This document shows positions 44,400-60,320 of a DNA stretch of 64,000 nucleotides, piece after piece (position 1 is the stretch's first letter; each line of letters begins with the position of its first letter). Both the position numbers and the translations under genes were made by a program. The DNA comes from Symbiodinium natans (lineage: Eukaryota > Sar > Dinophyceae > Suessiales > Symbiodiniaceae). The notes under the pieces are model-generated. The model was not told where the DNA came from. It made no database searches and saw only the letters and a program-made list of their open reading frames with translations. The DNA lies in contig CAJNDS010002136.1 in the NCBI GenBank assembly GCA_905221605.1, positions 70,001 to 134,000 of the forward strand, given 5' to 3'.

Positions 44400-46923
44400 C
44401 CCCATGGCCCCATGGTCCCCTGGCCCTATGCCTCTAGACCCGATCTGATGACTTTATCAGATGACATTAAAGGGACCCATGGCTCCTGGCCTCATAAAGG
44501 GCCCCAGTGCATGCCTGCCCTGCGCTTGCTCAGCCCTTCCCTCCGCCCGCCACTCATGGCCCCATCCCTTCGGCCCCTATGGCTCCATGGCCCCATCTTC
44601 TCGACCTCAAGGGCCCCAGTGGACGCCCATCCTTGGCCCCAGGGCCCCAGCCCCATGCCCCATGGTCCCTGTGGCCCGATGCCTCTAGACCCGATCTTCT
44701 TTAAGTGCATGCCCGCCGCCCGCTCCGCTTGCTCCGCCCTTCCCCCGCTCCACCCGCTCCATGGCCCTCGAGCCCCCACGGCCCCCAACCCATGCCTCCA
44801 TGGCCCCATGGCTCCTGGCGCTATATCCAATGTTTTATGCTTCGGCTTGGACGGCCAACCCCCTACTTTGTGGCTCCTGGCCCCATGGCCCCATGGTCGC
44901 CTGGCCCTATGCCGCCCTCCATGGCCCTCGAATTGCATGGCCCCCATGGACCCATGCCTCCATGGCCCCATGGCCTCGACCCCCATGCACCTGCATGGAC
45001 CTATGCTGTCTCCATGCTTCGGCTTGACGGCCAACCCCCTACTTTGCGGCTCCTGGCCCCATGGCCCCATGGTCCCCTGGCCCTATGCCTCTAGACCCAA
45101 GCAAATGACTTTAAAGGGCCCCAGTGCATGCCCGCCCGCTCCGCCCGCTCTGCTTGCTCCGCCCTCCATGGCCCTGGACTTGGCCTGGACCCATGCCTCC
45201 ATGGCCCCATGGCCTCAACCCCCATGGCCTGCATGGACCTATGCTTCCATGGCCCCATGGCTCCTGGCGCCATGGCCCCCAATGTCTCCATGCTTCCACG
45301 GCCAACCCCCTACTTTGTGGCTCCTGGCCCCATGGCCCCATGGTCCCCTGACCCTATGCCTCCAGACCCAATCAAATGACTTTAAAGGGCCCCAGTGCAT
45401 GCCCGCCCGCTCCGCCCGCTCCGCTTGCTCCGCCCTTCCCCGCTCCACCCGCCCTCCATGGCCCTCGACCCCCATGACCCCCATGGACCCATGCCTCCAT
45501 GGCCCCATGGCTCCTGGCGCCATGGCCCCCAATGTCTCCATGCTTCTGACGGCCCTACTTTGTGGCTCCTAACCCCATGGCCCCATGGTCCCCTGGCCTA
45601 TGCCTCTAGACCCAATCCACTGACTTTAAAGGGCCGCAGTGCATGCCACCCGCCCCGCCCGCTCCGCCCGCTCCGCTTGCTCCGCCCTTCCCCCGCTCCA
45701 CCGCCGACCCCCTACTTTGTGGCTCCTGGCCCCGTGGCCCTGGCCCTATGCCTCTAGACCCAATCGAAAATGACTTTAAAGGGCCCGCCCGCTCCGCCTG
45801 CTCCGTTTTTCCGCCGCTCCACCCCCCATGCTCCTGGCGCCATGGCCCCCAATGTCTCCATGCTTCCACGGCCAACCCCCTACTTTGTGGCTCCTGGCCC
45901 CATGGCCATGGTCTGCCTCTAGACCCAATCAAAGCGCATGCCCGGCCGCTCCGCCCCCCCCGCTCCACCCCCCATGGCCCCCATGGACCCATGCCCCATG
46001 GCTCGGCCACCCGCCCTCCATGGCCCTCGACCCCCATGACCCCCATATGGACCCATGCCTCCATGGCCCCATGGCTCCTGGCGCCATGTGGTTGCACGGC
46101 CAACCCCTACTTTTGGCTCCTTCCCCCATGGCCCCATGGTCCCCTTGCCCTATGCCTCTAGACCGTTCCGCTTGCTCCGCCCTTCCCCCGCTCCACCCGC
46201 CCTCCATGGCCCTCGACTCCCATGAATGGCTCCTGGCGCCATGGCCCCCAATGTCCATGGTTGGATGGCCAACCCCCTGCTTTTTGTGGCTCCTGGCCCC
46301 ATGGCCCCATGGTCCCCTGGCCCTATGCCTCGATCTAGACCCAATCAAATGACTTTAAAGGGCCCCAGTGCATGCCCGCCCGCTCCGCCCGCTCCGCTTG
46401 CTCCGCCCTTCCCCTCCGCCCGCTCCGCTTGCTCCCCCCTTCCCCCGCTCCACCCACCGTCCATGGCCCTCGACCCCCATGGCCCCCATGGACCCATGCC
46501 TCCATGGCCCCATGCCTCCTGGCGCCATGGCAATGTCTGGATGCTTCGACCCCTTTGAAGTCATTTGATTGGGTTTAGGGCCAGGAGCCACAAAGTAGGG
46601 GTTGGCCGTCGAAGCATGGAGACATTGGGGGCCAAACCCAGGAGCCATGGGGCCATGGAGGCATGGGTCCATGGGGGCCATGGGGGTTGAGGGCCATGGA
46701 GGGCGGGTGGAGCGGGGGAAGGGCGGAGCAAGCGGAGCGGGCGGAGCGGGCGGGCATGCACTGGGGCCCTTTAAAGAGGCATAGGGCTAGGGGACCATGG
46801 GGCCATGGGGCCAGGAGCCACAAAGTAGGGGGTTGGCCTGCATGCCCGCCCGCTCCGCCCTCCCCCGCTCCACCCGCCCTCCATGGCCCTCGACCCCATG
46901 GCTCCTGGCGCCATGGCCCCCAA
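44400..46923. repeat. CCATGG-rich minisatellite, left part
   Basis: Units of up to about 270 bp, many truncated, containing GCGCCATGGCCCCCAATGTC, GGCCAACCCCCTACTTTGTGG, GACTTTAAAGGGCC and CATGCCCGCCCGCTCCGCC. All six frames stay open for long stretches because stops are rare in the unit, which explains the big Pro/His-rich frames here. It is cut at 46923 by the 13-kb transposon and resumes at 59950. Confidence 0.9.
46551..46840. repeat. Inverted block inside the minisatellite
   Basis: Between about 46551 and 46840 the units read in the opposite direction (AAGTCATTTGATTGGGT ... GGGCGGGCATGCA), then the original direction returns. Confidence 0.75.
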
Positions 46924-47240
46924 CTTGGAAGGGCGTCGGTTTCGTAAGTGAATAGGCTTGTTAACGAAAATAATATCTCGTGTAAGTGAACATAATAATA
47001 CGGGTAAGCATGGTTTATTGCATTTATAAGTATGCTATGGTGCATATTTATTTTGTTACATTTAGTATGTTGGTAGCATGGACATATATTTAAAAAATAA
47101 ATGATGTAGATGGATAGCACCAATATATGTCTAAAACAATAATTATAGATAATTGCACTAAATGATTATACGAATTTAATGTGACTCATTTACCCTACTT
47201 AGCTAAACACACTTGTTTGTTTTAGCAAGCAAGCTAAATC
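46924..47240. repeat. Left terminal inverted repeat and AT-rich subterminal zone
   Basis: After the 8-bp end come GTAAGTGAAT, GTAAGTGAACATAATAA, GGTAAGCATGG, TTATAAGTATGC and CTACTTAGCTAA. These look like scattered transposase-binding motifs. GC content drops sharply from the neighbouring minisatellite. Confidence 0.7.
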
Positions 47241-47260
47241 AGTTTGTTTGTAAAGGAGGA

Positions 47261-49747
47261 ATGGCATTGGAGACCATTCCGAAGAAGCAAATGTTTTTTA
47301 AACCGTGGATGCAAGATGTTTGCAGAGTTGCATATATGTGTGCTCGCTGGCAGTCATGGCACGATCGAGATGCCAATTTAAGCAGGGCACGCATGTTTGT
47401 GATTGTGGGTATTTGCAGCTTGTTGCTCAGACTTTTGCTTGTGAAGATTCAGCACCGTCAGTTTTGGCATGATTCCTGCAGATGTTGATCGCCGAGTCAG
47501 CATGCTCTTGGAGGGTGCAGCCACTGGAGAGAAGTTGGTGAACACAGTTCACCAAATCATGCAGGTTTTGAGAGACAATGGGCTCGTAAGCTCTATGAGA
47601 CTGCTTCCCTCGGCAGTTGGGGTCCATCCCAAAAATAGGGATGGCATGGGCTTGAACAGCTCTGACGTCCACACTCTTCTTTCGAACCTCCTCGAAGTAG
47701 GATTCGTGTCGGAGAGGACACATTGTGTTGCTATCGAGCCAGCGAACGATGAAGAATTGAAATGGAATCAGCAGCTCATCGACAGTTGCCAGGGGCTGCT
47801 GGGGACGATGAAACCTCTGCAGACACTGAAGGCATTGAGCCTTTGTGGCAGTCACACCAATTTTGTTCTTCGGGTCATCGCCGATGCTGCCCCTCATCAG
47901 GGCCCCGAGAGCGAAAAGGTCACCGTGGGAGGCCGGCTTGATGTGGGGTTGGTGTCCAAGGTCGACAAAGCCCTCGCCGACCATGTTCGGCATGGCTTGA
48001 ATTGGGAGGTGTTGTCGTCATCGGTGGGCCTTCGCTGGCCAGAACTCTTGCAGATGATCCAAGCTGCAGGGAATGCTACCCTACAGAAGAGCGAGTCCGA
48101 GTTGCAGTGCTCAGGAAGACATTCGAACTCATCGTGTCACAGCAGAAGGCCGGCATCCAGCTGGACTTCAACGGCATCAAGAAGAAAGCACTCTCATCCC
48201 GCCCGGCCTGTGGCAATTCCTTCGCTCACTTTTACCAGTTCGCTTTAAAGCTTCTTGTCCTCAGCATGTATCGCTTGCAGGGCTATATAGCTCGCATTGC
48301 AGATAGACCTTGTTTGTTGCATGCCAGCATGTGAGTATAGTTGGGTCTGCATATAGGTTTTTTGTAGAGCAGGTATTGTGGTGGAGCCGAAGGCCTCTTC
48401 TTGACAGAGACGGAGAGGTTCGTGAGGGCCAGGGGCTCCACGACAGCACTCGGCGAGAAGGTGTGGGAGGCGATCTGTCATGAAATCAAAGGCAGCAAGA
48501 GCCAGCTGCCCTTCCTTCGGCACGGGTTGCTGAAACTCGCCATGACCGGCATGCACTTGAGTGCCACAGATTGCAAGCGAGTTTTCAGCAACAGCTCCAT
48601 GGTTGGCAAGGCTGTGAAGGCTGACGGGCTCATGTCCCAGCTCCGAACACTGGCTACTCAAGCGAGCCACGGAGCTCTCGCCGACCAGAAGCTTGTGAAT
48701 GTCTTGGGAGTGGTGGACTCCAACATGGTGGCTCATGTGATGAACATGCAGGTCGCAGATGAGAAAAAATACAGATCTCTGGAGGGCATCTGCCACGATG
48801 CTGTGTCGATTGTCGCCAGGGTCCTCGGTGTGCCGATTGCTTCCCCGTGGGAGGCCCATGCCGAAGCACTCCCTGCAGCCGAATCCGGAGGGAAAGCAGC
48901 AGATCGACTCGTTGAGCTTAACCCGGACGGGTCCATGAAGCAGCCAGGTGAAATCTTGGAAGCTATGTCTATCAAGCCTGGAACGTTCGTTCGCCGGAAG
49001 AAGAACAAAGTCGAATGCGAAGTCTTGCATGTTCATGATGCTGTCAAGCTCAAAAACCTGAGCGACGGCCGGGCAGTGAGGGTCCAGATCGATGCTTTTG
49101 TTCGAGGCGAATGGCAAGTGTATACCCCGAAGCAAGAGGTGCATGAGATCATGGACCTCCAACCATATGGGCCCCAATCAGTCCACCCCGATTTCGACAT
49201 CGCCCACACAGTGGCCAAGATCCATTGCGAGATGCATGCTGTCGTTCAGAACCTTGATGTGCATGCCACGATGGAGAAGGTGAAGCTGCAGCTTCGGCCT
49301 ACCAAAACCCTTGTCACGAAGTCGGCTATCGGCAAGGGCAAATTGAGTCTCGTTCCCTTCAGCTCCAAGGTTGTTGTCCGAAGCAAATCCGACACCCTGC
49401 AGGGAGCTGCAGAAGTGACTTTGAAAAAGGGATGCCACGATCGTCGCTTCTTCATTGTCGCCTCCAACATCATGCCCAAAGCAAGCGAGGATGCCCCTGA
49501 TGTGCTCGTGGGTTTCTTGTCCCCGTTCTTCTTCGTCCAGACAGTAGACGAGGAGAGTAAGGCCAACATGACGATTGTCTTGTCAGGGACCAACTCATCC
49601 GAGATTCGCATACCGATCATGAAGAACCTTGTCCCTTTGCCTGCTGGGCAAGAGCTCTTGATCTTCAAGGCAAAGGCCCCAAAGCAGGAAGAGCCACTGG
49701 AGGCAGCATCCCCTGAGAGACGAGTGAAAGGCAAGAGGGCTGCATGA
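47261..49747 (+). CDS. Transposon gene 1, three exons, one frameshift
   Basis: Exons 47261-47381, 47482-48249 and 48373-49747 join in phase through two introns with GC donors and AG acceptors (100 and 123 bases). Near 48075-48095 the frame must change by one base: the text switches from LLQMIQAAGNA to ERVRVAVLRKTFELIVSQQ with no room for an intron, so one base is lost or missed. Repaired, the protein would be about 754 residues. Landmarks are VAYMCARWQSWHDRDAN, SNLLEVGFVSER, CGSHTNFVLR and GGAEGLFLTETERFVRARG. I know similar proteins from dinoflagellate genomes as repeated, transposon-linked families of unknown role. Confidence 0.6.
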
Positions 49748-50052
49748 TTGCAGTGTGACATGCAAAGTGCTAGCATGATTTTGACATGAGCTCGGGAGTG
49801 TAGCACCTCGGGCGAGAGATCAACATGGGTTTGTCAGAGATGCACTGATGGAGGCTTTCATCGGTTGTGCAAAATTTGGATGCTCGGATTGTGCTGTAGC
49901 AGGTGCATGGAGCAGCAATTCTGAGTCTTGCTTTGTTGCATGAAACATGTGAAAGCTCGCAGCATGCATTGCAGCCCATTTTGCGCGCAATTTCGCACCT
50001 TTGTTTGCCATTGTGCTGACTTGTCAGCAACCCAACCTGTTCAGATTCAGAT

Positions 50053-50652
50053 ATGGAGTTCGCGGAAGCAGCCGATGATCAGGAGCTTCACTTGTGCCAG
50101 AAGTGGGTTGTGAACCTCAAAGGCTGCAAAACGTGGGTTCCGAAACAAAAAGAAGTAGACGGGGGCACCTTCCTTGCTTTGTCGAAGTGGGACAGACAAT
50201 GCATCCTCGCCTTGACCGATAGGGCATTGGACCTGAGGAAGGACAAGGACGGAGGGAGCTTGAACTCCGAAGTTTGGGCTCAGCTCATTGAAGCCCGTCA
50301 AGATGTGGCCGACAAGGCCATCCAAGAGGCCCTCAAGATGGAGAACACAGAGGAGACCCCGACCAAGAAGCAGAAGGCAGTCAGGGCTGGCTCCAAGCAC
50401 GACTTCATGGCACCACCCATTCTTACCGTGCATTACCAGGGCCACTCATTCCGTGTCCTTTACGAGGGTTTGGGAGGCAACACTTTGTGGGTCGAGGCTA
50501 AGGAGGAGACCCTGCGAATCTTGAAGAAGTTCATCTCTCAATCCAAGCCCAAGCCCCGTGTCAACAAGCCCAAGGCCAAGCAGGGCAAGAAGTCCCCGAA
50601 GAAGTCCCCGAGAAAGCGACGATCGTTGTCCAGGGCCGACAGCCTTAAGTGA
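50053..50652 (+). CDS. Transposon gene 2, small basic protein
   Basis: 199 residues from an ATG just after a splice-like TTCAG. The first ~115 residues are acidic-neutral (KGCKTWVPKQKEVDGG, LSKWDRQCILALTDRALDL). A middle block reads HYQGHSFRVLYEGLGGNTLW, and the tail is Lys/Pro/Ser-rich (KQGKKSPKKSPRKRR), fitting DNA or chromatin binding. No named family recognised. Confidence 0.6.
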   Translation: MEFAEAADDQELHLCQKWVVNLKGCKTWVPKQKEVDGGTFLALSKWDRQCILALTDRALDLRKDKDGGSLNSEVWAQLIEARQDVADKAIQEALKMENTEETPTKKQKAVRAGSKHDFMAPPILTVHYQGHSFRVLYEGLGGNTLWVEAKEETLRILKKFISQSKPKPRVNKPKAKQGKKSPKKSPRKRRSLSRADSLK

Positions 50653-50759
50653 GCCGGACATCAGTGTCTATGAAGTATATAGATCCTTGTAGCTGGGAGG
50701 CAGCATGTGGCAATCTGTATAGAGGAAAGGATTGAAACAGTGCCATCGTGCCATCGAAA

Positions 50760-50906
50760 GGTCTTGAGACTGGAGATTTCGAAGGAGGGAGAGGAAGCGA
50801 GAGGGAGAGGGAGAGGGGGGAGAGGGACAGGGAGAGGGAGAGGGAGAGGGAGACAGACAGGGAGAGAGCCAGAGCGAGAGAGAGCTATACGAGAGAGAGA
50901 AAGAAG
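50760..50906. repeat. GAGAGG-type purine-rich repeat
   Basis: (GGGAGA)n and related words after gene 2, leading into a degenerate CCCTAAA/CCCTATATAAA tract (50912-50970). Confidence 0.8.
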
Positions 50907-51080
50907 GCCCGAAACCCTAAACCCTAGAAACCCTTAAACCCTATATAAACCCTAAACCCAAACCCTAAACCTATATATATGTGTGCAGCACAAGGCTCGG
51001 ATGGGCCATTTTGTGCATGGGCATGCATGTTGAATGATGGCTGCACACACACAGACACACACGTGCACGTGACTTTAAAG

Positions 51081-52941
51081 ATGCCTTTGCTGGCCGCCTC
51101 CATGGTCGGGCAGAACGACGAGGAAATGGACATGTTCCTGAACCTCGATCTTCTGCAGAGCCTCAGCCCGATGAAGAAAGGAGCCAAACAAGTGGCCACT
51201 TTGAGTTGAAACCTTTGATTTATGTTGACACCTGCAGGACGATGGGGGAACGACTGTGCCCAGATGAGGTGGACACAGACCTCCGGATGGAGGCTGGTGA
51301 ACCTGGAGGTGGGCTCGTGCTGACTTTACAATCTTTCCGTGGTCCACATATAACTTCTTTTGGCAGGACGACCAGCCTTACTGGAGGCATCCAGACTTGC
51401 ATGCCATGGAGCCACCTGGGGAAGGCCCCGATAAACCCAGCTTCCATTTGTTTCGGAAAACGATGTCAACCATGCCAGGCTGGCTCTTCTGGCAGGACGG
51501 CGATTGGGTGGAGTCTGGGCTGAACCTGCTCCAGATGGTGGATGTCGAGGATGAGGAGGTCCATTCTTTTGCATCAGTATACTTGCAACATGGTCATGTG
51601 GTTTGAAACAGGAGCATGAGCAGCCGGAGGTGCAGGCACGACTCTCAGACTTCAAGCGAGCATATTGCCCTGCTGAGCCAGAAGGTAGAACCCCTATATA
51701 GAGTACAAGGGCCCTATAAACCCTATAACCCTGAACCCTATATATCCTTACAAACCCTATATATAAGCCTAAACCCTCAGAAACATATGTAAACCTTTTC
51801 TAAGCCCTAAACTCAAATCCATCAACCTAAACCCCAAACCTTATTATAAACCCTAAACCTGCAATGTCTCTATAGGTCAAGAAGGGCAATGGGGTGCCTC
51901 GCAGGAAGGCGAAGAAGGTGCCCATCTTCTGAGCACTTCATGTTTCCCCGTTCGTACACATGTTGCAACCCACATGCCAGGACATGGATGACATCAGCTC
52001 TGGGAGCAATGTCACGAACTCAAGAAAGGGACACGTGGCTCAGCTTTTACGATTTGAAGTCAACACATGTGTGGAGGCTTCGGCTAAACAGCCCAGGGAG
52101 CCCGATCACCCTCCTCGGCGCAAGGAGTCTTCTAGAAGGGTTTCGGGTTTAGGATTTATATAGGGCTTGGGGGTTATATATGGGTTTAGGGTTTTCATAG
52201 GGTTATATAGGGCTTAGGGTGTAAGGAGTTTATATACGGGTTAGGGTTTAGGGTTTCTAGGGTTTTTTCGGGTTTATAGGTTTTATATAGGGTTTGTAGG
52301 GTTTAGGGTGTCGCTGCATGCAGGACAGCTACTTTCACCCGAAGAAGATGAAGCATGCCACGAAGGATGGGCCAGGCACCGAGCTGCACCCGCCCCACCG
52401 CTGCCCGCCGCCACCCCCCCCGCCGGTTCCCGTGGCCCGGGCTGATGGTGCGAACTTCCCGGTGGCACAGGGGAAGGCAGGGCAGGCATGGGATTTCACA
52501 ATTCTTGGGTGCCTTGTGGTCTTTGCAATGACATGCAGGCTCCGTGGGCCGGGACAAAGAGGAAGTTCCCGGCCGAGATCTGCAAGCCCGACCATGCCGG
52601 TCGAGGCCATGAATGCTGCAGGCTTCTCAGACTTTATGTTGTCTGGTTTGAGGCCAATATGTGCGTGGCTTCCTGGACGACTCCGGCACTTTGTGGCCAC
52701 CCGGAGCAGGCCGTGCTCGGGCCAGAACCAGGGGTGGGTCACGAAGCAAGCCGGAGGCGGGGTTGGAATTATGTTGTCTGTGTTGGCTTGGGTCCTGTTG
52801 TGCTGCTCGGGAGATGGACCATCGCCTGGTGGATGGTTTGCTGCAGCTCGCCGAGACGGTGAACCTGCAGGCCCGATTTGTTACAGTGGCTTGCACAGAA
52901 TGAGAAAACCCATCCCGGAGGCGAGGTCCAGCTTGGGCTAG
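51081..52941 (+). CDS. Transposon gene 3, at least nine exons, function unknown
   Basis: Exons 51081-51204, 51238-51308, 51367-51537, 51612-51684, 51876-51949, 51981-52139, 52324-52476, 52539-52599 and from 52622 on keep phase at every join. Donors are mostly GT here; several introns are only 31-74 bases. Landmarks are MVGQNDEEMDMFLNLDLLQS, CAQMRWTQTSGWRLVNLE, DDQPYWRHPDLHAMEPP, PGWLFWQDGDWVESGLN, QPEVQARLSDFKRAYCP, HVAQLLRFEVNTC and RKFPAEICKPDHA. Trp-rich, with a Pro run. The 3' end is uncertain; an exon near 53331 may follow. Two long introns (51685-51875 and 52140-52323) are filled with CCCTATATAAACCCT- and TTTAGGG-like repeats. Confidence 0.55.
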
Positions 52942-53003
52942 CTGTGTGGGGCCCCCGTTAACAGGGAAGCGATGCTGCAACTCTTGCTGTCCTGCAGCGT
53001 GTG

Positions 53004-53094
53004 GGTTTAGGGTTTAGGGTTTAGGGTTTAGGGTTTAGGGTTTAGGGTTTAGGGTTTAGGGTTTAGGGTTTAGGGTTTAGGGTTTAGGGTTTAG
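53004..53094. repeat. Perfect telomere-type tract inside the transposon
   Basis: (TTTAGGG)13 without errors, between gene 3 and the 53.1-55 kb spacer. Other tracts inside the element are degenerate. Confidence 0.95.
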
Positions 53095-53387
53095 ACTCGA
53101 GAGGCACGGCATGGCTTCGATTTGAGGGCATTTTGTCTGGTGCCCAGCCAAGCCTAGGCACCCTTGAGCCCCCAAGCCCCCCAAACCGAATCCCAACACG
53201 AGCTCCTTTCGAGGCCCGTGGAATCCTGCTGGCTGTGGTCGCCACCTCTGCTCCTGCCTCAATACTACAAGAATACTGGTGGCTGTGTCGTCCCCTGCAA
53301 TGCATAAATTTCGGCCATTGCAGGTGACGACAGCTGCAGATGAGGGGGCTGAAGCGGGCTGCTTGCAAGACCACCGAAAGTAGCAGG

Positions 53388-53545
53388 CTTATAGATCGAT
53401 AAGGTCGTGGTTCCGGGAAAGACAGGGGAATATAGATTGATATGGTTGGGGCCCCGGGCCGGGCCAGCAGCATATAGATTGACATGGTTCGGGGGCCGGG
53501 GCAGCCACAGCCATATAGATTGATAAGGTTGGGTGTTTCAGTCCG
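53388..53545. repeat. Four-copy tandem repeat, period about 41 bp
   Basis: ATATAGATTGATAAGGTT-like words followed by G/C-rich tails start near 53388, 53430, 53472 and 53513. Confidence 0.75.
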
Positions 53546-53975
53546 GTGGCCCTTGCAGGCTGCACACAGGCTTTCGGCCTTCATTAGCACGGGGACACGA
53601 CGATGAGACTGCCTAGGCCCTGTGTAGGCCCAACTTCAACTAGAGGCACCGGGCAACTGACATCGTGTCTCCATGCTCGAAATTGGCTGGCCGTGGTTAC
53701 AGCTGAGCCGGGCGAGCTGCAGGAGGGGCATAGAGTTCGCAGCAGACCTCGCCACCAAACCCTAAGGCCCATTAAGGTTTCAAACTCTAAGCCCTCCAAC
53801 CCTAAAAGGGTTTGGGGTTGAGGGTTGAGGGTGTAGGGTTTAGGGTTTATAAGGTTACTTATAAGGTTTAGGGTTTAGGGGTTAGGGTTCTGGATCTACA
53901 AGCCAGCACAGCCTGCAGCCGCCGGTGCTCCTTGCTTTTGTATATACACCCTATTCATTTCTCCATACATATGTA

Positions 53976-54009
<34 letters not shown>

Positions 54010-54674
54010 CATACATATATATATATGTATACATATATATATATATATATATAAATATGTGCTATAAAGGTGTGGGGCTTTGGTGTCTGTATCATCAGTC
54101 ATGTCATATATGATTATGTTTCTGTGTATATAGGTATAATATACATACATATATATATATATACACATATACATATATATATATATGCAATCTACATATA
54201 TAGTAGTATATTTAGCCTGCTGAAACCAATGGCTGACCCCTTGGAGAGGTTGGCACTGCTGCACCCGGCAAGATGGCCTGAACTCTAAACTCTAAAAAAC
54301 CCTAAACCCTAAAGACCCTGAGACCCTGTATATCCTATACAACCCGCACCCTATATAAACCCTGTATATAAACCCTGCTGGAACCCAGACTATTTAGAAA
54401 CCCTGAACCCTAAACCCCACACCCTGAATGGGGTTTGGGCCTTGTATAGGGGTTTAGGGTGTATAGGGTTTGGGGATATACAGGGTTTAGGGTCTATATA
54501 GGGTTTATATAGGGTTTGTAGGGTTCATAGTCTGTTAAACCCCAAACCCATCGTATAGAATAAGCCCTGAACCCCACACCCCCATGTAGGATGTATCCAG
54601 GAGTTTCTGATTCGAGCTGGGTGCAGTCTCGGCTGGCATGGGAGCATGTATAGCACCGCTCTGCCAAAAAAAAA

Positions 54675-54812
54675 GATGCAGGGAGGGCGGGAGGAGGGGA
54701 GGGGGGGAGGGGAGGGAGGGGAGGGAGGGGAGGGGAGGGGAGGGAGGGGAGGGAAGGGGGCAGGAGGGGAGGGGGGGGAGGAGGGGGAGAGAGGGGGAGA
54801 GGGGAGGTCACG

Positions 54813-54907
<95 letters not shown>
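54675..54907. repeat. Purine tract: (GGGGA)n followed by (GA)46
   Basis: About 230 bases of almost pure purine on the plus strand. Confidence 0.95.
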
Positions 54908-54910
<3 letters not shown>

Positions 54911-55279
54911 CAAGAGAGCAGACAAACCAGAAAGTTTTGAGACCATGCTGGTGGTGCTTGGTTTGGTGCATGAGCAGGATGTTGCGACATGTGATGATGT
55001 TTCCTAAATGATATTCTGCTGGTCGTGCTGCAGCCGGCACTTGCTTGTCGTGGCCGGTTGTGGTTGTGGTGGTGGTCATGGTGAAGTGAGTGCCTCACAT
55101 GCACAAGAGCATGCAGACTTGTCCTGTCCCTTCCATGTACATGTCATCTGCTTCATTCAGAATGCAGACTGGCACCAGCTGCAAAGTCGCTTTGCAGGGC
55201 ACATGTTGCTCGCGAGCAGGTTTTCGCAGCCGGATTGATCTCGAGTGTTGTGTGCCCGTGTTCGCCGAGCTTGCCCGTC

Positions 55280-56340
55280 ATGGTCGACCAGCTGCTGGGG
55301 CACATGAAAAGCATCGGCGAGTTCTTGCAGCAGACCTCCAGCATGGCACCGGACATCCAAGAAAAAGTGGCAGCCAACCAGATGGAGCAGCTGTTGCACA
55401 AGCTGAGTCTCATCAATGACCTGACCACAGAGGAGGCGACAACATTGTCTGCAGCCTTGAAAGGTCCTTGCTGGACAGACACCCATCGGAGCACATGGGT
55501 CGAGGCAGTGTCGAACAAGATCGCCCACAAAGGCCGGAGTAATGGCAGGAAGCCGACCCAGAGCTTGCTCCACTTCGGTGCCTTCCTGACACCGACCGAT
55601 GTTGCAGTCTTGGCAGGACATGGGAACCTGTGTGTGAAGCTCGAAACCATGGTGACCCGATGCCTGTCGATCGGCTTGACAAACCCTTCTGAGCAAACAG
55701 TCGGGAATGTTATTGCAACAGGCATGCAGCATGGCATTGCCTGCACCCCGGAAGATTCGTTCAATGTGGTCCAAGAGTTCAAGAGGCTCTTGAAAAACAA
55801 GAGGAAATCGGCTCCGTCTTTCACCGAGCACGTGCAGTCCTACCCCAGCGACCCCAGGCAGCTGCCCACGAAGATTTTCGACTTCGCCTACAGCTCGGAG
55901 GAACCGGTGCAGCAAGATCAAGCACAACTTCCTGCATCCAGTGCTAGTGGGCAAGTCGTTCTCCGGAGAAGCAGCAAGGTGGTTCGAGACACTTTGCAGG
56001 GTAGGCCTGCACATGTACCTACCAATGCTTTCGCACCGGATGCTGCAAAGACCATGCTCTCCATGATGACAACCCTCATGAATATGCAGTCCGGCATGCA
56101 GCAGGGCACAAGGCAGGGCTCGGGCTTGCCAAACTTGAGGATCTTCGGCCCGAATGGGTCGAGTGGTTCGCAGGCATCCAGAAGCCCAGGTATGCTGCAA
56201 CATGAAGATGCTTTCCAGTCGCCTCCTCGCACAAGTGCAGGCATGCCTGCAGCATCCCCCCAGCAGCAGCAGCTGTCCCCACTGCAGCAGCAGCAGCAGC
56301 TGTCCCCCCATGTGCAGCAGCTCTCCCCCGAGCAGCAGGC

Positions 56341-56381
<41 letters not shown>

Positions 56382-56830
56382 TGCAGCAGCTGCAGCTGGC
56401 CTTGCCGAGTGGTCAGCAAAGCCCATCCCTGTCAAGAACTTCACCTACATTTCAGACACATTTGCCCAGCATGGATGACAATGACGTCATGGGGGAAGTG
56501 GAGAACTCGAGCAAGCTCGTGACCGAGGCTTTGGAGAACAAGAAGATGGAGAACAAGAAGAAGCCAGCAGCCTCAAAGGCCAAAGCTAAAGCCAAGTCCA
56601 AGGCCGAGCTACCCAAAGGTAAGCCCAAAGCAAAGGCAAAAGCCGTTGCTAAGGCAGGCACTAAGGATTCCAAGCCCAAGGCCAAGGCCCAACCAAAGAG
56701 CAAGGGTATGGCAAAGCCGGATCGTGAGCACTTTCGCTCCATGACCAGTGCCCAAAGGATCAAATTGCGCCCGAATGGGTGTGGCAAGTGCCGGTGGAGG
56801 CCGGGCTGTTCCCCAAGTTGCTTTGCCTGA
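55280..56830 (+). CDS. Transposon gene 4, Gln-rich protein with C-terminal Cys cluster
   Basis: The 516-residue frame starts at the first good ATG (MVDQLLGHMKSIGEF). Residues ~30-170 form a helical domain (LLHFGAFLTPTDVAVLAG; RCLSIGLTNPSEQTVGNVIA) that I know from dinoflagellate repeat-encoded proteins. Then come a Gln tract coded by CAG repeats (56340-56385), a Lys/Ala-rich stretch (KAKAKSKAELPKGKPKAKAK) and the ending CGKCRWRPGCSPSC, spaced like a small zinc site. A DNA-binding partner of the transposase is a fair guess. The final TTT could instead be followed by a GC donor joining in phase to gene 5. Confidence 0.65.
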
Positions 56831-57299
56831 GCAGCCTGCCCAGCAAGCCGAAGTGAGTGTGAGTTTTGTGTTTCAATTGAAGCCATGCAGTCTGTGCGAC
56901 TTCAGCATTCGGTGAATGGTACATCGTGCGAACAATTGTTCCATCTTCGGCAGCAGCTTCAGGGGCAGCTGTTCTTAGTACTATATCCTATATACTGTGT
57001 GCAGAACGAAAGATGTTGCATTTGGTGACAGGGAGTCGCTCTCGCAACTGTGCTCGAAACAGCATGCATGCATGCTTGCTTCATGGATTGCATGTGTGCT
57101 CCAGTTGGCATGCAGCATTCATGGACTGTCCTCGCAACAGATCTTTTTGCCATCACTGATGTCAGCTCTGTAGGCTTCGGCTTGCTGATGTGCTGTTGTC
57201 ACTGTGTTCTGCATGCAGGTCGCTGCCTCAAAGTTTCAATTCGCCGTCTATGTAGGCTCAAGCAAACCGCTTCAGACCTTTCTTGTTGCTTGCAGGTTT

Positions 57300-57430
57300 A
57301 TATATATGGTTTACTTGGGGGCTTCTATAGGGTTTAGGGTTCTATAGGGTTTAGGGTCCATATAGGGTTTAGGGTTTAGGGTTTATATATAGGGTTTATA
57401 GGGTTCTATATTTCTAAGGTTTAGGGGCTT
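57300..57430. repeat. Degenerate TTTAGGG tract with TATATA insertions before the transposase exon
   Basis: TATAGGGTTTAGGGTTC-type words, ending about 80 bases before the transposase 3' splice site at 57511-57512. Confidence 0.8.
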
Positions 57431-57512
57431 ATAAGGGAAGTTTCGGTCGGTTCTTCACTTCACACGAAATCTTGTTTTTGTTGAATCCACATGCAGATTC
57501 TCGCTTTTGCAG

Positions 57513-59549
57513 GGCTGCCGTAAAGCTCGCAAAGCAGGGACTACAATGGTTGATCTGGCCAAATTGGGCCGACGATCATATGTCAGTCTCAATGGCCTTG
57601 CGAATGTATTGAAAGAGTTGAAAGCCCTGGATAGACTGCCTGATGCATCTTCTCGGGCAAGCCTTAAACGAGCCCGGGAAGGCGACTGCAAGGTTAATAC
57701 AGCTCTCGGCCCAACCTTTTCTTCCTTGGGCATCCACATCGAGGAGCTGGATCGCCGGACGGGAACAACAAGTATTGTAGAGCACAAGCTTCCTTTCATA
57801 CGCTTGCCAGCTGTGCTTTCTCATGCCATTGCGACATCCGATGGATTCCGAGAGTTTTTCTTGGACAGGCTCAGGGCATGCCCCAATGGGCCCACGAGCC
57901 CATGGAAGATGATTGTGTATGCAGATGAGATCACTCCCGGAAATGCTTTGAAACCACTCAACAGTAGAAAAATCCATGCATTTTACGTCAGCTTTGCAGA
58001 GATGGGCACCGAATTGTCATCGGAGAGCATGTGGTTCACTGTCCTGGCAGCTAGAAGTGATCTCGTCAACAAAATGGAAGGTGGCTTCTCAGAGCTTTTC
58101 AAACTCTTCATGGAAAAACTGTTTGAAGGGCCTTTCAACTTGAAGACGGGATGCATGCTGGATTTTGGCCAGGGGCGGCAACATTTGTTTTTTGCATCGC
58201 CTGCCATCTTCGTGGCGGATGAATCATGCATCAAGTTTGCCTGGGACCTCAAGGGAGCCTCGGGGTCAGTGTGCTGCTTGTTTTGCAGCAACATCGTTTC
58301 TCAGAACAACAGGCTTGATGTTCATGATGCCACGAATACCTTGGTCACCATTGCCGAAACCGACAGCTCGAAGTGGCGAGCTCGTGGCGACCAACTGCTG
58401 TGGGCCTCGCATGATCGTTTGGAGACCATTGCTGGTCGTGGCAGCAAGGCCGAGCTGCAGAGGTTGCAGCAAGCCATGGGAATAAACCACAACTATAAGG
58501 GTTTGTTGGGATCCCGCTTGCTTGCACCCTCCCCGACAACGATATATGACTGGATGCATTGTTATTTGGTGAGTGGACTTCTTCAGCTGGAGCTGGGACT
58601 CCTGATCCCATTGCTTTATGCTGCTGGACACAGTGTCAAGGAAATCCTGACCTTCTTCAGCTCCTTCGAGTGGCCTCATGGACTGCGACCCCATAAGCGA
58701 GAGGTTTTGAAAATCTTTGAGAAGAAGACAGTGCCGGGTGATTTCAAATGCTCGGCATCCCAAGGCCTCAGCATATACCCACTCTTGAGGCTTTTCGTGC
58801 TTCTCCATGCCAACTCGCTTACTGGAGCCGCTGTCAGAATGGCTTGCGATAGCTTTCTGAAGCTTTGCTTGGTGCTTGATTTTCTGCTGGAGGGGAACAA
58901 GGGCAAGGCAATCAGCCCACAGGAGCTGCGATCCCGCATTGTGGCTCACTCGCAAGCATTTTTGAAAGTTCACAGCGAAGATGCAGTGATTCCGAAATTT
59001 CATTATTCACTGCATTTGCCAGGCATGCTGCATCAGCATCAGAGGCTCGTCTCATGCTTTTGCCATGAACGGAAACATAAACAAATCAAGATGATCGCAA
59101 ACAACCTCCACAAAGTCACGAAGACTTTTGAGTTCACTGTGATGGAGGATGTCTTGGGTCGTTCTTTCCTGAGCTTGCAGGAACATAAGTTCTGGACAAA
59201 GCCTTCGGTGACAAAAGCGAAGCCAGCATCGGAAGAGCTTGTCGCAGAACTGGTTGCTTCTTTCGGTTTACCACAAGCCATGGGATCCTTAGCAGGCCTT
59301 GTGGCTGACTTCCAGCCTGGGCAGACATGCGAGCGAGGTGACACAGTTGTCGTTGGGGCGGTTGTCGCCGAAGTGTGGCTGCATGTGCAGCTGGCGAACG
59401 GTGAGGTGCACTCGCTGGTATCTGTGTGGGAGCCACTCGGCAAAAATCGTTTCAGTGTTCGGGAGCAGCCGACCTGGATCCCTACAAACACGATCGACAA
59501 GGCTGTGCTGCACCGAAGGTGCAATGGAGAGGCACTCATTGTGCCATGA
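57513..59549 (+). CDS. Transposon gene 5, DDE/RNase H-like transposase
   Basis: It would cut the element ends and join them to target DNA in the nucleus. The frame begins after TTTTGCAG and gives 678 residues. Visible blocks, numbered with Gly at 57513 as residue 3: IVYADEITPGN (137-146, first acidic residue), a lone ADES (238-240), DLKGASG with a CC-x2-C zinc-like turn (247-260, second acidic site), DWMHCYLVSGLLQLELG (348-364) and CFCHERKHK (517-525, likely catalytic Glu). The layout matches transposases common in dinoflagellate genomes and is closest to the EnSpm/Plavaka/KDZ type. No stop or frameshift is seen, so it may be active. Either the first ATG (57546) or a spliced upstream exon starts the protein. 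Confidence 0.68.
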   Translation, partial: GCRKARKAGTTMVDLAKLGRRSYVSLNGLANVLKELKALDRLPDASSRASLKRAREGDCKVNTALGPTFSSLGIHIEELDRRTGTTSIVEHKLPFIRLPAVLSHAIATSDGFREFFLDRLRACPNGPTSPWKMIVYADEITPGNALKPLNSRKIHAFYVSFAEMGTELSSESMWFTVLAARSDLVNKMEGGFSELFKLFMEKLFEGPFNLKTGCMLDFGQGRQHLFFASPAIFVADESCIKFAWDLKGASGSVCCLFCSNIVSQNNRLDVHDATNTLVTIAETDSSKWRARGDQLLWASHDRLETIAGRGSKAELQRLQQAMGINHNYKGLLGSRLLAPSPTTIYDWMHCYLVSGLLQLELGLLIPLLYAAGHSVKEILTFFSSFEWPHGLRPHKREVLKIFEKKTVPGDFKCSASQGLSIYPLLRLFVLLHANSLTGAAVRMACDSFLKLCLVLDFLLEGNKGKAISPQELRSRIVAHSQAFLKVHSEDAVIPKFHYSLHLPGMLHQHQRLVSCFCHERKHKQIKMIANNLHKVTKTFEFTVMEDVLGRSFLSLQEHKFWTKPSVTKAKPASEELVAELVASFGLPQAMGSLAGLVADFQPGQTCERGDTVVVGAVVAEVWLHVQLANGEVHSLVSVWEPLGKNRFSVREQPTWIPTNTIDKAVLHRRCNGEALIVP

Positions 59550-59749
59550 GCCCTGCCGGCGAGCAAAATGCCCTGCCTATATAGCGAGCCAACACAGCCT
59601 TCGACTGTTCACTTGCCACATCTCGTCAGCATGTAACCAGAGCCTTGCCTTCAAGTTCGCACCTGTATTTTGCTGCACCAGGTTACATGGCACATTCTTG
59701 GAGGCATCTCATACCCCTGGTTCCGGTGTTTTCCGAACGTTTCTTTAGT

Positions 59750-59949
59750 CATATTTTGTGGCCCATAAAACAAGTTAGCATACTTAGACAACTTAAGATA
59801 TATCTGCTAAGTTCACATACTATGTGCCTTAACTCAGTACTGCTAAACCAACTTAGTGTAAATCTATGTCTACTTATATAAGTATGGTATCTGCTACATT
59901 TACTTAGCACCTTAGCCATGTATTTTCTAACCCCGCGCGGGCTTCCAAG
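59750..59949. repeat. Right AT-rich subterminal zone and terminal inverted repeat
   Basis: Contains ATACTTAGACAACTTAAG, GCTAAGTTCAC, CCAACTTAGTGTAAATC, CTACTTATATAAGTATG and TTTACTTAGCACCTTAGCC, the inverted counterparts of the left-end TAAGT motifs, then CTTCCAAG. Confidence 0.7.
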
Positions 59950-60320
59950 AATGTCTCCATGCTTCGACGCCCCGCTCCGCCCTCCCCGCTCCACCCGCCC
60001 TCCATGGCCCTCGACCCCCATGGCCCCCATGGACCCATGCCTCCATGGCTCCTGGCGCCATGGCCCCCAATGTCTCCATGCTTCCACGGCCAACCCCCTA
60101 CTTTGTGGCTCCTGGCCCCATGGCCCCATGGTCCCCTGGCCCTATGCCTCCAGACCCAATCAAATGACTTTAAAGGGCCCCAGTGCATGCCCGCCCGCTC
60201 CGCCCGCTCCGCTTGCTCCGCCCTTCCCCCGCTCCACCCGCCCTCCATGGCCCTCGACCCCCATGGCCCCCAGGACCCATCCCTTCGACCTCCATGGCCC
60301 CCATGGACCGATGGCTCCTA
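59950..60320. repeat. CCATGG-rich minisatellite, right part
   Basis: It resumes at AATGTCTCCATGCTTC, exactly where the left part stopped, and ends near 60320 against a TTTAGGG-like tract. Confidence 0.9.

Follow-up and report, generated by a model that had tools for sequence, protein, structure and literature searches.

A 13-kb multi-gene DNA transposon with a predicted RAG1/Transib-like transposase in Symbiodinium natans

RAG1-type transposases are the ancestors of antibody-gene recombination, and in the RAG system the PHD of RAG2 is a chromatin-reading module; the known RAG1-type relatives are, to our knowledge, one- or two-gene elements. In En/Spm, the protein TnpA binds the subterminal repeats and pairs the ends. 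The active-site residues of RAG1 are given as D600, D708 and E962 (PMC6941560) and the target duplications of both RAG and Transib as 5 bp (PMC7204232). EnSpm, Plavaka and Transib/RAG1 have C(2)C and H(3-4)H motifs in common and make duplications of 2-5 bp; EnSpm/CACTA is described with CAC..GTG ends and 3-bp duplications, PlavakaA with TGT..ACA ends and 2-bp duplications, and Zisupton with 8-bp duplications, whilst some KDZ (Zisupton/Kyakuja/Dileera) elements carry an extra gene, TET/JBP (PMC12730594). Here we describe an element of 13,026 bp in a 64,000-nucleotide stretch of DNA (the window; bases 70001-134000 of contig C1824) from the dinoflagellate Symbiodinium natans. Very probably it is a DNA transposon that moves autonomously by cut and paste, and its lineage, which the papers found do not describe, lies within the wide RAG1/Transib/EnSpm-type (CMCT) group. 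An earlier interpretation of the letters alone (the sequence-only reading) had held that it is not described as a defined family, and the literature searched, with subscription papers and Repbase outside its scope, indeed yielded no such element and no paper combining Transib, RAG1, transposon and BAH domain; three papers name both Transib and dinoflagellate, each of them one to four times.

Exact ends, target duplications and copies

The transposon is real and its ends are exact; the 2-bp duplications differ between insertions, near-identical copies exist and the gene set recurs. Its outer features are as follows.

46924..59949, + strand: whole transposon, 13,026 bp; boundaries identical in three copies
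46922..46923, no strand: target-site duplication AA, left (flank reading)
59950..59951, no strand: target-site duplication AA, right (flank reading)
46924..46931, + strand: 5' terminal inverted repeat (TIR) CTTGGAAG; end sequence, compared across copies
59942..59949, - strand: 3' TIR (CTTCCAAG on the + strand); end sequence, compared across copies
46945..47030, no strand: 5' subterminal TAAG/CTTA repeats at element positions 22, 60, 82 and 104 (motif count)
59783..59914, no strand: 3' subterminal TAAG/CTTA repeats, ten starts (motif count)
55170..55170, no strand: site equivalent to the retrotransposon-like insertion of the C2068 copy (copy comparison)

Inverted CTTGGAAG/CTTCCAAG ends with AA on both sides, as claimed by the sequence-only reading, are read directly at 46922-46931 and 59942-59951. 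The minisatellite that was said to become continuous upon excision does so: removal in silico of the element and one AA gives the joined sequence ...GCCCCCA ATGTCTCCATGCTTC, a form that is also present uninterrupted at about 60058-60080. The short TIR, 2-bp duplication and subterminal motifs that had been named as a diagnostic set are all seen.

The genome searched was a 759-Mb assembly of 2543 contigs, and the queries were the first and last 601 bases of the element, each of which gave three matches, both at the same three copies: the window copy, C2068 (5' end 332815, 3' end 312321) and C489 (5' end 57289, 3' end 43883). All three start with CTTGGAAGGGCG and finish with CTTCCAAG at the same base, so that the boundaries of the further copies, with terminal bases as in the window copy, coincide with the ends at 46924 and 59949. 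The AA flanks expected of other copies are confined to the window copy, the flanks being TA/TA in C2068 and CT/CT in C489; the 2-bp length is common, and is found in 4/4 bounded insertions (AA, TA and CT in the three copies, and TA in the C2441 relative treated below). The copies measure 13,026 bp (window), 13,069 bp (C2068) and 13,407 bp (C489), the C2068 length being counted without a 7421-bp insertion and with one copy of that insertion's 5-bp duplication. This insertion (L004, L008), which breaks the C2068 copy, has 137-bp identical end repeats TG..CA and a 5-bp duplication AGACT, and is built like a long terminal repeat retrotransposon; its site is about 110 bp upstream of the start of gene C. 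Over 13,014 aligned bases, 24 substitutions separate the window copy from the C2068 copy, and movement is therefore taken to be recent.

The motif ACTTA/TAAGT occurs seven times in the last 300 bp of the element, against 1.3 in Markov resamples (0/300 resamples as high), and four times in the first 300 bp (6/300 as high). A spacing of ~22 bp accounts for 4/9 gaps at the 3' end of the window copy and two of the first three at its 5' end; because it is only partial, with 1/8 gaps at the 3' end of the C2441 relative, phasing of the repeats is at most hinted at.

The predicted transposase, gene T

57546..59549, + strand: gene T, transposase, 667 amino acids (aa), open reading frame (ORF) open from 57435 (ORF, homologues, predicted structure)
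57576..59204, + strand: T residues 11-553, RAG1/Transib-like part (predicted structure)
59196..59546, + strand: T residues 551-667, BAH-like domain (predicted structure)

T is predicted to fold like RAG1 or Transib transposase over ~460 residues, with a RAG1-type core, and a BAH fold is predicted for its C-terminus. Residues D127, D225, C244-C247, H486-H490 and E508 are near-invariant in the covering segments of 30 loci. Following the published definition of the CMCT motifs (PMC12730594), we infer that D127-D225-E508 form the active site, and that C244, C247, H486 and H490 may stabilize a helical insertion through zinc, by analogy with RAG1. The ratio of nonsynonymous to synonymous substitution rates (dN/dS) is 0.34 for T (all such values, and the synonymous rates dS, compare window with C489, except for the first part of gene A, where C2068 is compared with C489). 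Its database homologues include a Symbiodinium microadriaticum protein, 80% identical over the aligned part.

Large size, multiple genes and short terminal repeats are also what an integrated virus or virus-like element would show. Such an origin is very unlikely, given that eight window ORFs had no capsid, polymerase or packaging family in Pfam at E up to 1, that T had no match in 50,697 phage records, and that a RAG1-like transposase with 2-bp duplications suits a DNA transposon.

Associated genes, relatives and mosaic structure

47469..48334, + strand: gene A, first part (A1); frameshifted here near 48106, open in C2068; dN/dS 0.26
48368..49747, + strand: gene A, second part (A2), 459-aa ORF (ORF, homologues)
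50053..50652, + strand: gene B, 199-aa basic protein; dN/dS 0.18 at dS 1.27; 8 genome places
51234..52879, + strand: gene X, seven coding-like islands (island limits, not exact exons; copy comparison)
55280..56830, + strand: gene C, 516 aa, with a helical domain at the N-terminus, a middle rich in Q and in Lys/Ala, and a motif of four Cys at the C-terminus (ORF, homologues, predicted structure)

Five same-strand genes had been proposed, and A, B, X, C and T do all lie on the + strand; the two left ORFs are probably one gene, A, split by a short intron. Judged by eye, homologues P0055 and P0057 carry both gene A parts, P0055 (an S. microadriaticum gene model) linking portions of A1, A2 and B, while in P0057 an A1-like portion is linked with one of A2. 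The database homologues of gene A include an S. microadriaticum protein with 59% identity over the aligned part; dN/dS is 0.37 for A2. The proposed nine-exon gene is visible as a many-exon gene, X, in the form of the seven islands, and the count of nine was not confirmed. These islands, which were pre-chosen for protein likeness, have a ratio of nonsynonymous to synonymous differences (pN/pS) of 0.49 in frame vs 1.09 and 1.39 when shifted. Downstream of X, at 53377-53514, a short repeat around ATAGATTGATATGGTT recurs at the equivalent place in C489. Tracts of the telomere-type heptamer CCCTAAA/TTTAGGG lie within or next to X, and similar ones form dozens of short internal arrays, in both orientations, over window positions 1-44000.

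The genome matches given for A2, B, C and T are limited to scored candidates with E no higher than 0.001. A2 was found at seven places and B at eight, identical once C1956, where A2 was found by local tblastn (E 5e-5), joins the A2 list. A precedes B on one strand at 8/8 places and T lies downstream at 6/8, no T having been found among these candidates at C853 and C1853. Gene C, with 38 database matches, gave eight genome matches at seven places (83/90 candidates scored), all seven of which have a T match downstream, in the same orientation and 0.43 to 3.4 kb away; the C2024 match holds two stops. Gene C homology or a related CxxCR..CxxC motif stands upstream of T at 12/28 oriented loci (30 given): homology at L016-L019 and L021, and the motif, a looser likeness, at L024-L027, L031, L036, L037 and L021, almost the same in L025, L027 and L037. 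The motif pattern, which misses the window's own gene C owing to a different last spacing, had no match in six frames of 115.7 kb of other sequence. In the predicted structure of the gene C protein, a confident helical domain (~1-215) is followed by a middle part of low confidence and by a short module at the C-terminus; a fold search with the prediction gave no informative match, and dN/dS is 0.68. A distant transposase homologue of 1065 aa, P0009, has a Lys/Ala-rich stretch like the gene C tail before its transposase part, and may be either a C-T fusion or a joined gene model.

A, B, C and T keep their order and strand at C1956, where element ends were sought and none found, and A, B and C are found alongside transposases only about 30-42% identical to T. 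Because A, B and C recur in the same order with divergent transposases, they are not cargo, contrary to the sequence-only picture of a gene-carrying element. A and B are taken as element functions kept by selection, and X is probably likewise. An ordinary EnSpm/CACTA, Plavaka or KDZ element with host-gene cargo, in which the RAG1 match would reflect a general CMC-type fold only, is accordingly unlikely. In its favour, EnSpm, Plavaka and Transib/RAG1 all have C(2)C and H(3-4)H motifs and duplicate 2-5 bp of target, and PlavakaA likewise makes 2-bp duplications (PMC12730594). Linkage to such divergent transposases is unexpected for cargo acquired once, however, and the Pfam scan at E up to 1 gave no transposase family for the window ORF or for 10 members of the set labelled A1; this comparison was with Pfam profiles, EnSpm proteins themselves not being compared directly. 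When the termini CTTGGAAG..CTTCCAAG and CTTCGAGG..CCTCGAAG (the latter from C2441) were set against the published rule, which its source gives for most but not all, CTT..AAG fitted neither CAC..GTG, TGT..ACA nor CATCA..TGATG. What stands of the sequence-only reading is a defined DNA transposon, without the cargo genes.

A degenerate or composite region, with a small transposase unit beside unrelated repeated genes and foreign outer ends, would accommodate the frameshift in gene A, the insertion in C2068, the shorter gene A of C489 and the poor resolution of X. It is barely credible in view of ends that coincide in three copies and the conserved order and strand at C1956.

A second family shows the same architecture. 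Its transposase relative, in C2441 (40.7% over 550 aa), has a 3' zone rich in ACTTA/TAAGT. The apparent 3' end there, ...GAGCCTCGAAG|TA, predicts a 5' end TA|CTTCGAGG, and CTTCGAGG was found once in 18 kb of C2441, preceded by TA (chance expectation with that flank 0.016). The element so bounded, of 9204 bp (C2441:180282-189485, minus strand), contains C and T; A and B were not detected in the 18 kb around it. At C2024:77323-86380 (L028, L029, L051), two inverted partial relatives share an exact 3' end CCATCCAAG with differing flanks, and a relative in C1767 has a putative 3' end only.

In 250-bp bins of a forced alignment, the window and C489 copies (L006-L007, C489:43883-57289) are 92-98% identical over 46924-49173, 86-87% over 49174-49673, 45-80% over 49674-55173 and 92-99.6% from 55174 onward. 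The corresponding dS is 0.12 for A1, 0.19 for A2, 1.27 for B, 0.019 for C and 0.065 for T. The low middle bins and the dS of gene B indicate that the middle split far earlier than the flanks, of which recombination or gene conversion between element lineages would be the simplest account.

Proposed mechanism and comparison with known systems

Only the duplication length and the repeats themselves are observed; the rest of the mechanism is a proposal. Dimers of T would hold both ends, and T would cut at the CTTSGARG ends and insert the excised element at a 2-bp stagger in the target DNA. The cysteine cluster and basic tail of gene C suit nucleic-acid binding, so its product is a likely partner of T that would bind the ACTTA/TAAGT repeats and pair both ends, like TnpA in En/Spm. 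The BAH-like tail of T would probably tether the complex to chromatin.

A wider reading is possible, though we hold it with somewhat less than even confidence: that giant eukaryotic transposons of this type form a superfamily of their own, moved by a multi-protein machine in which a RAG1-fold T with its own chromatin reader works with a DNA-binding C and co-evolving helpers A, B and X, and that its members trade middle genes by recombination. Protists would then have, in histone-poor nuclei, an independent counterpart of the pairing of RAG1 with a chromatin reader on which V(D)J recombination rests. Dinoflagellate chromatin is histone-poor, and which mark, if any, the BAH module reads there becomes testable; the two nearly identical copies, suggestive of recent movement, make the element a testable system. 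If several genes recur as a set in a protist lineage whose enzyme has a chromatin-reader-like domain built in, such machines would be more varied than is known so far, and dinoflagellate repeats with a transposase that Pfam misses would gain a family name.

Compared with RAG1, Transib and RAG-like elements, the likeness is in the predicted fold over ~460 residues, the D-D-E residues and the C(2)C and H(3)H motifs, and in the involvement of a chromatin-reading module (the RAG2 PHD there, a BAH-like domain here). The differences are 2-bp rather than 5-bp duplications, CTTGGAAG ends rather than a TIR resembling the heptamer of the recombination signal sequence, and a BAH-like domain predicted inside the T chain itself. 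No convergent RAG2-like gene was seen: the genes found are all on one strand, and Pfam gave no kelch match in eight ORFs (X exons outside the scan). EnSpm/CACTA, taken by description, shares the C(2)C and H(3-4)H motifs, the subterminal repeats and possibly a second, TnpA-like protein that binds them, and differs in its ends, its duplication length and the lack of a Pfam transposase match here. PlavakaA shares the 2-bp duplication and CMCT motifs, and differs in having TGT..ACA rather than CTT..AAG ends and, again, in the Pfam result. KDZ elements are likewise DNA transposons, some with an extra gene, and differ in the 8 bp of Zisupton against 2 bp here and in the same Pfam result. The element is kept apart from EnSpm, Plavaka and KDZ, since its transposase has a predicted RAG1/Transib-like fold with a BAH-like domain at the C-terminus, and its CTT..AAG ends fit none of the three.
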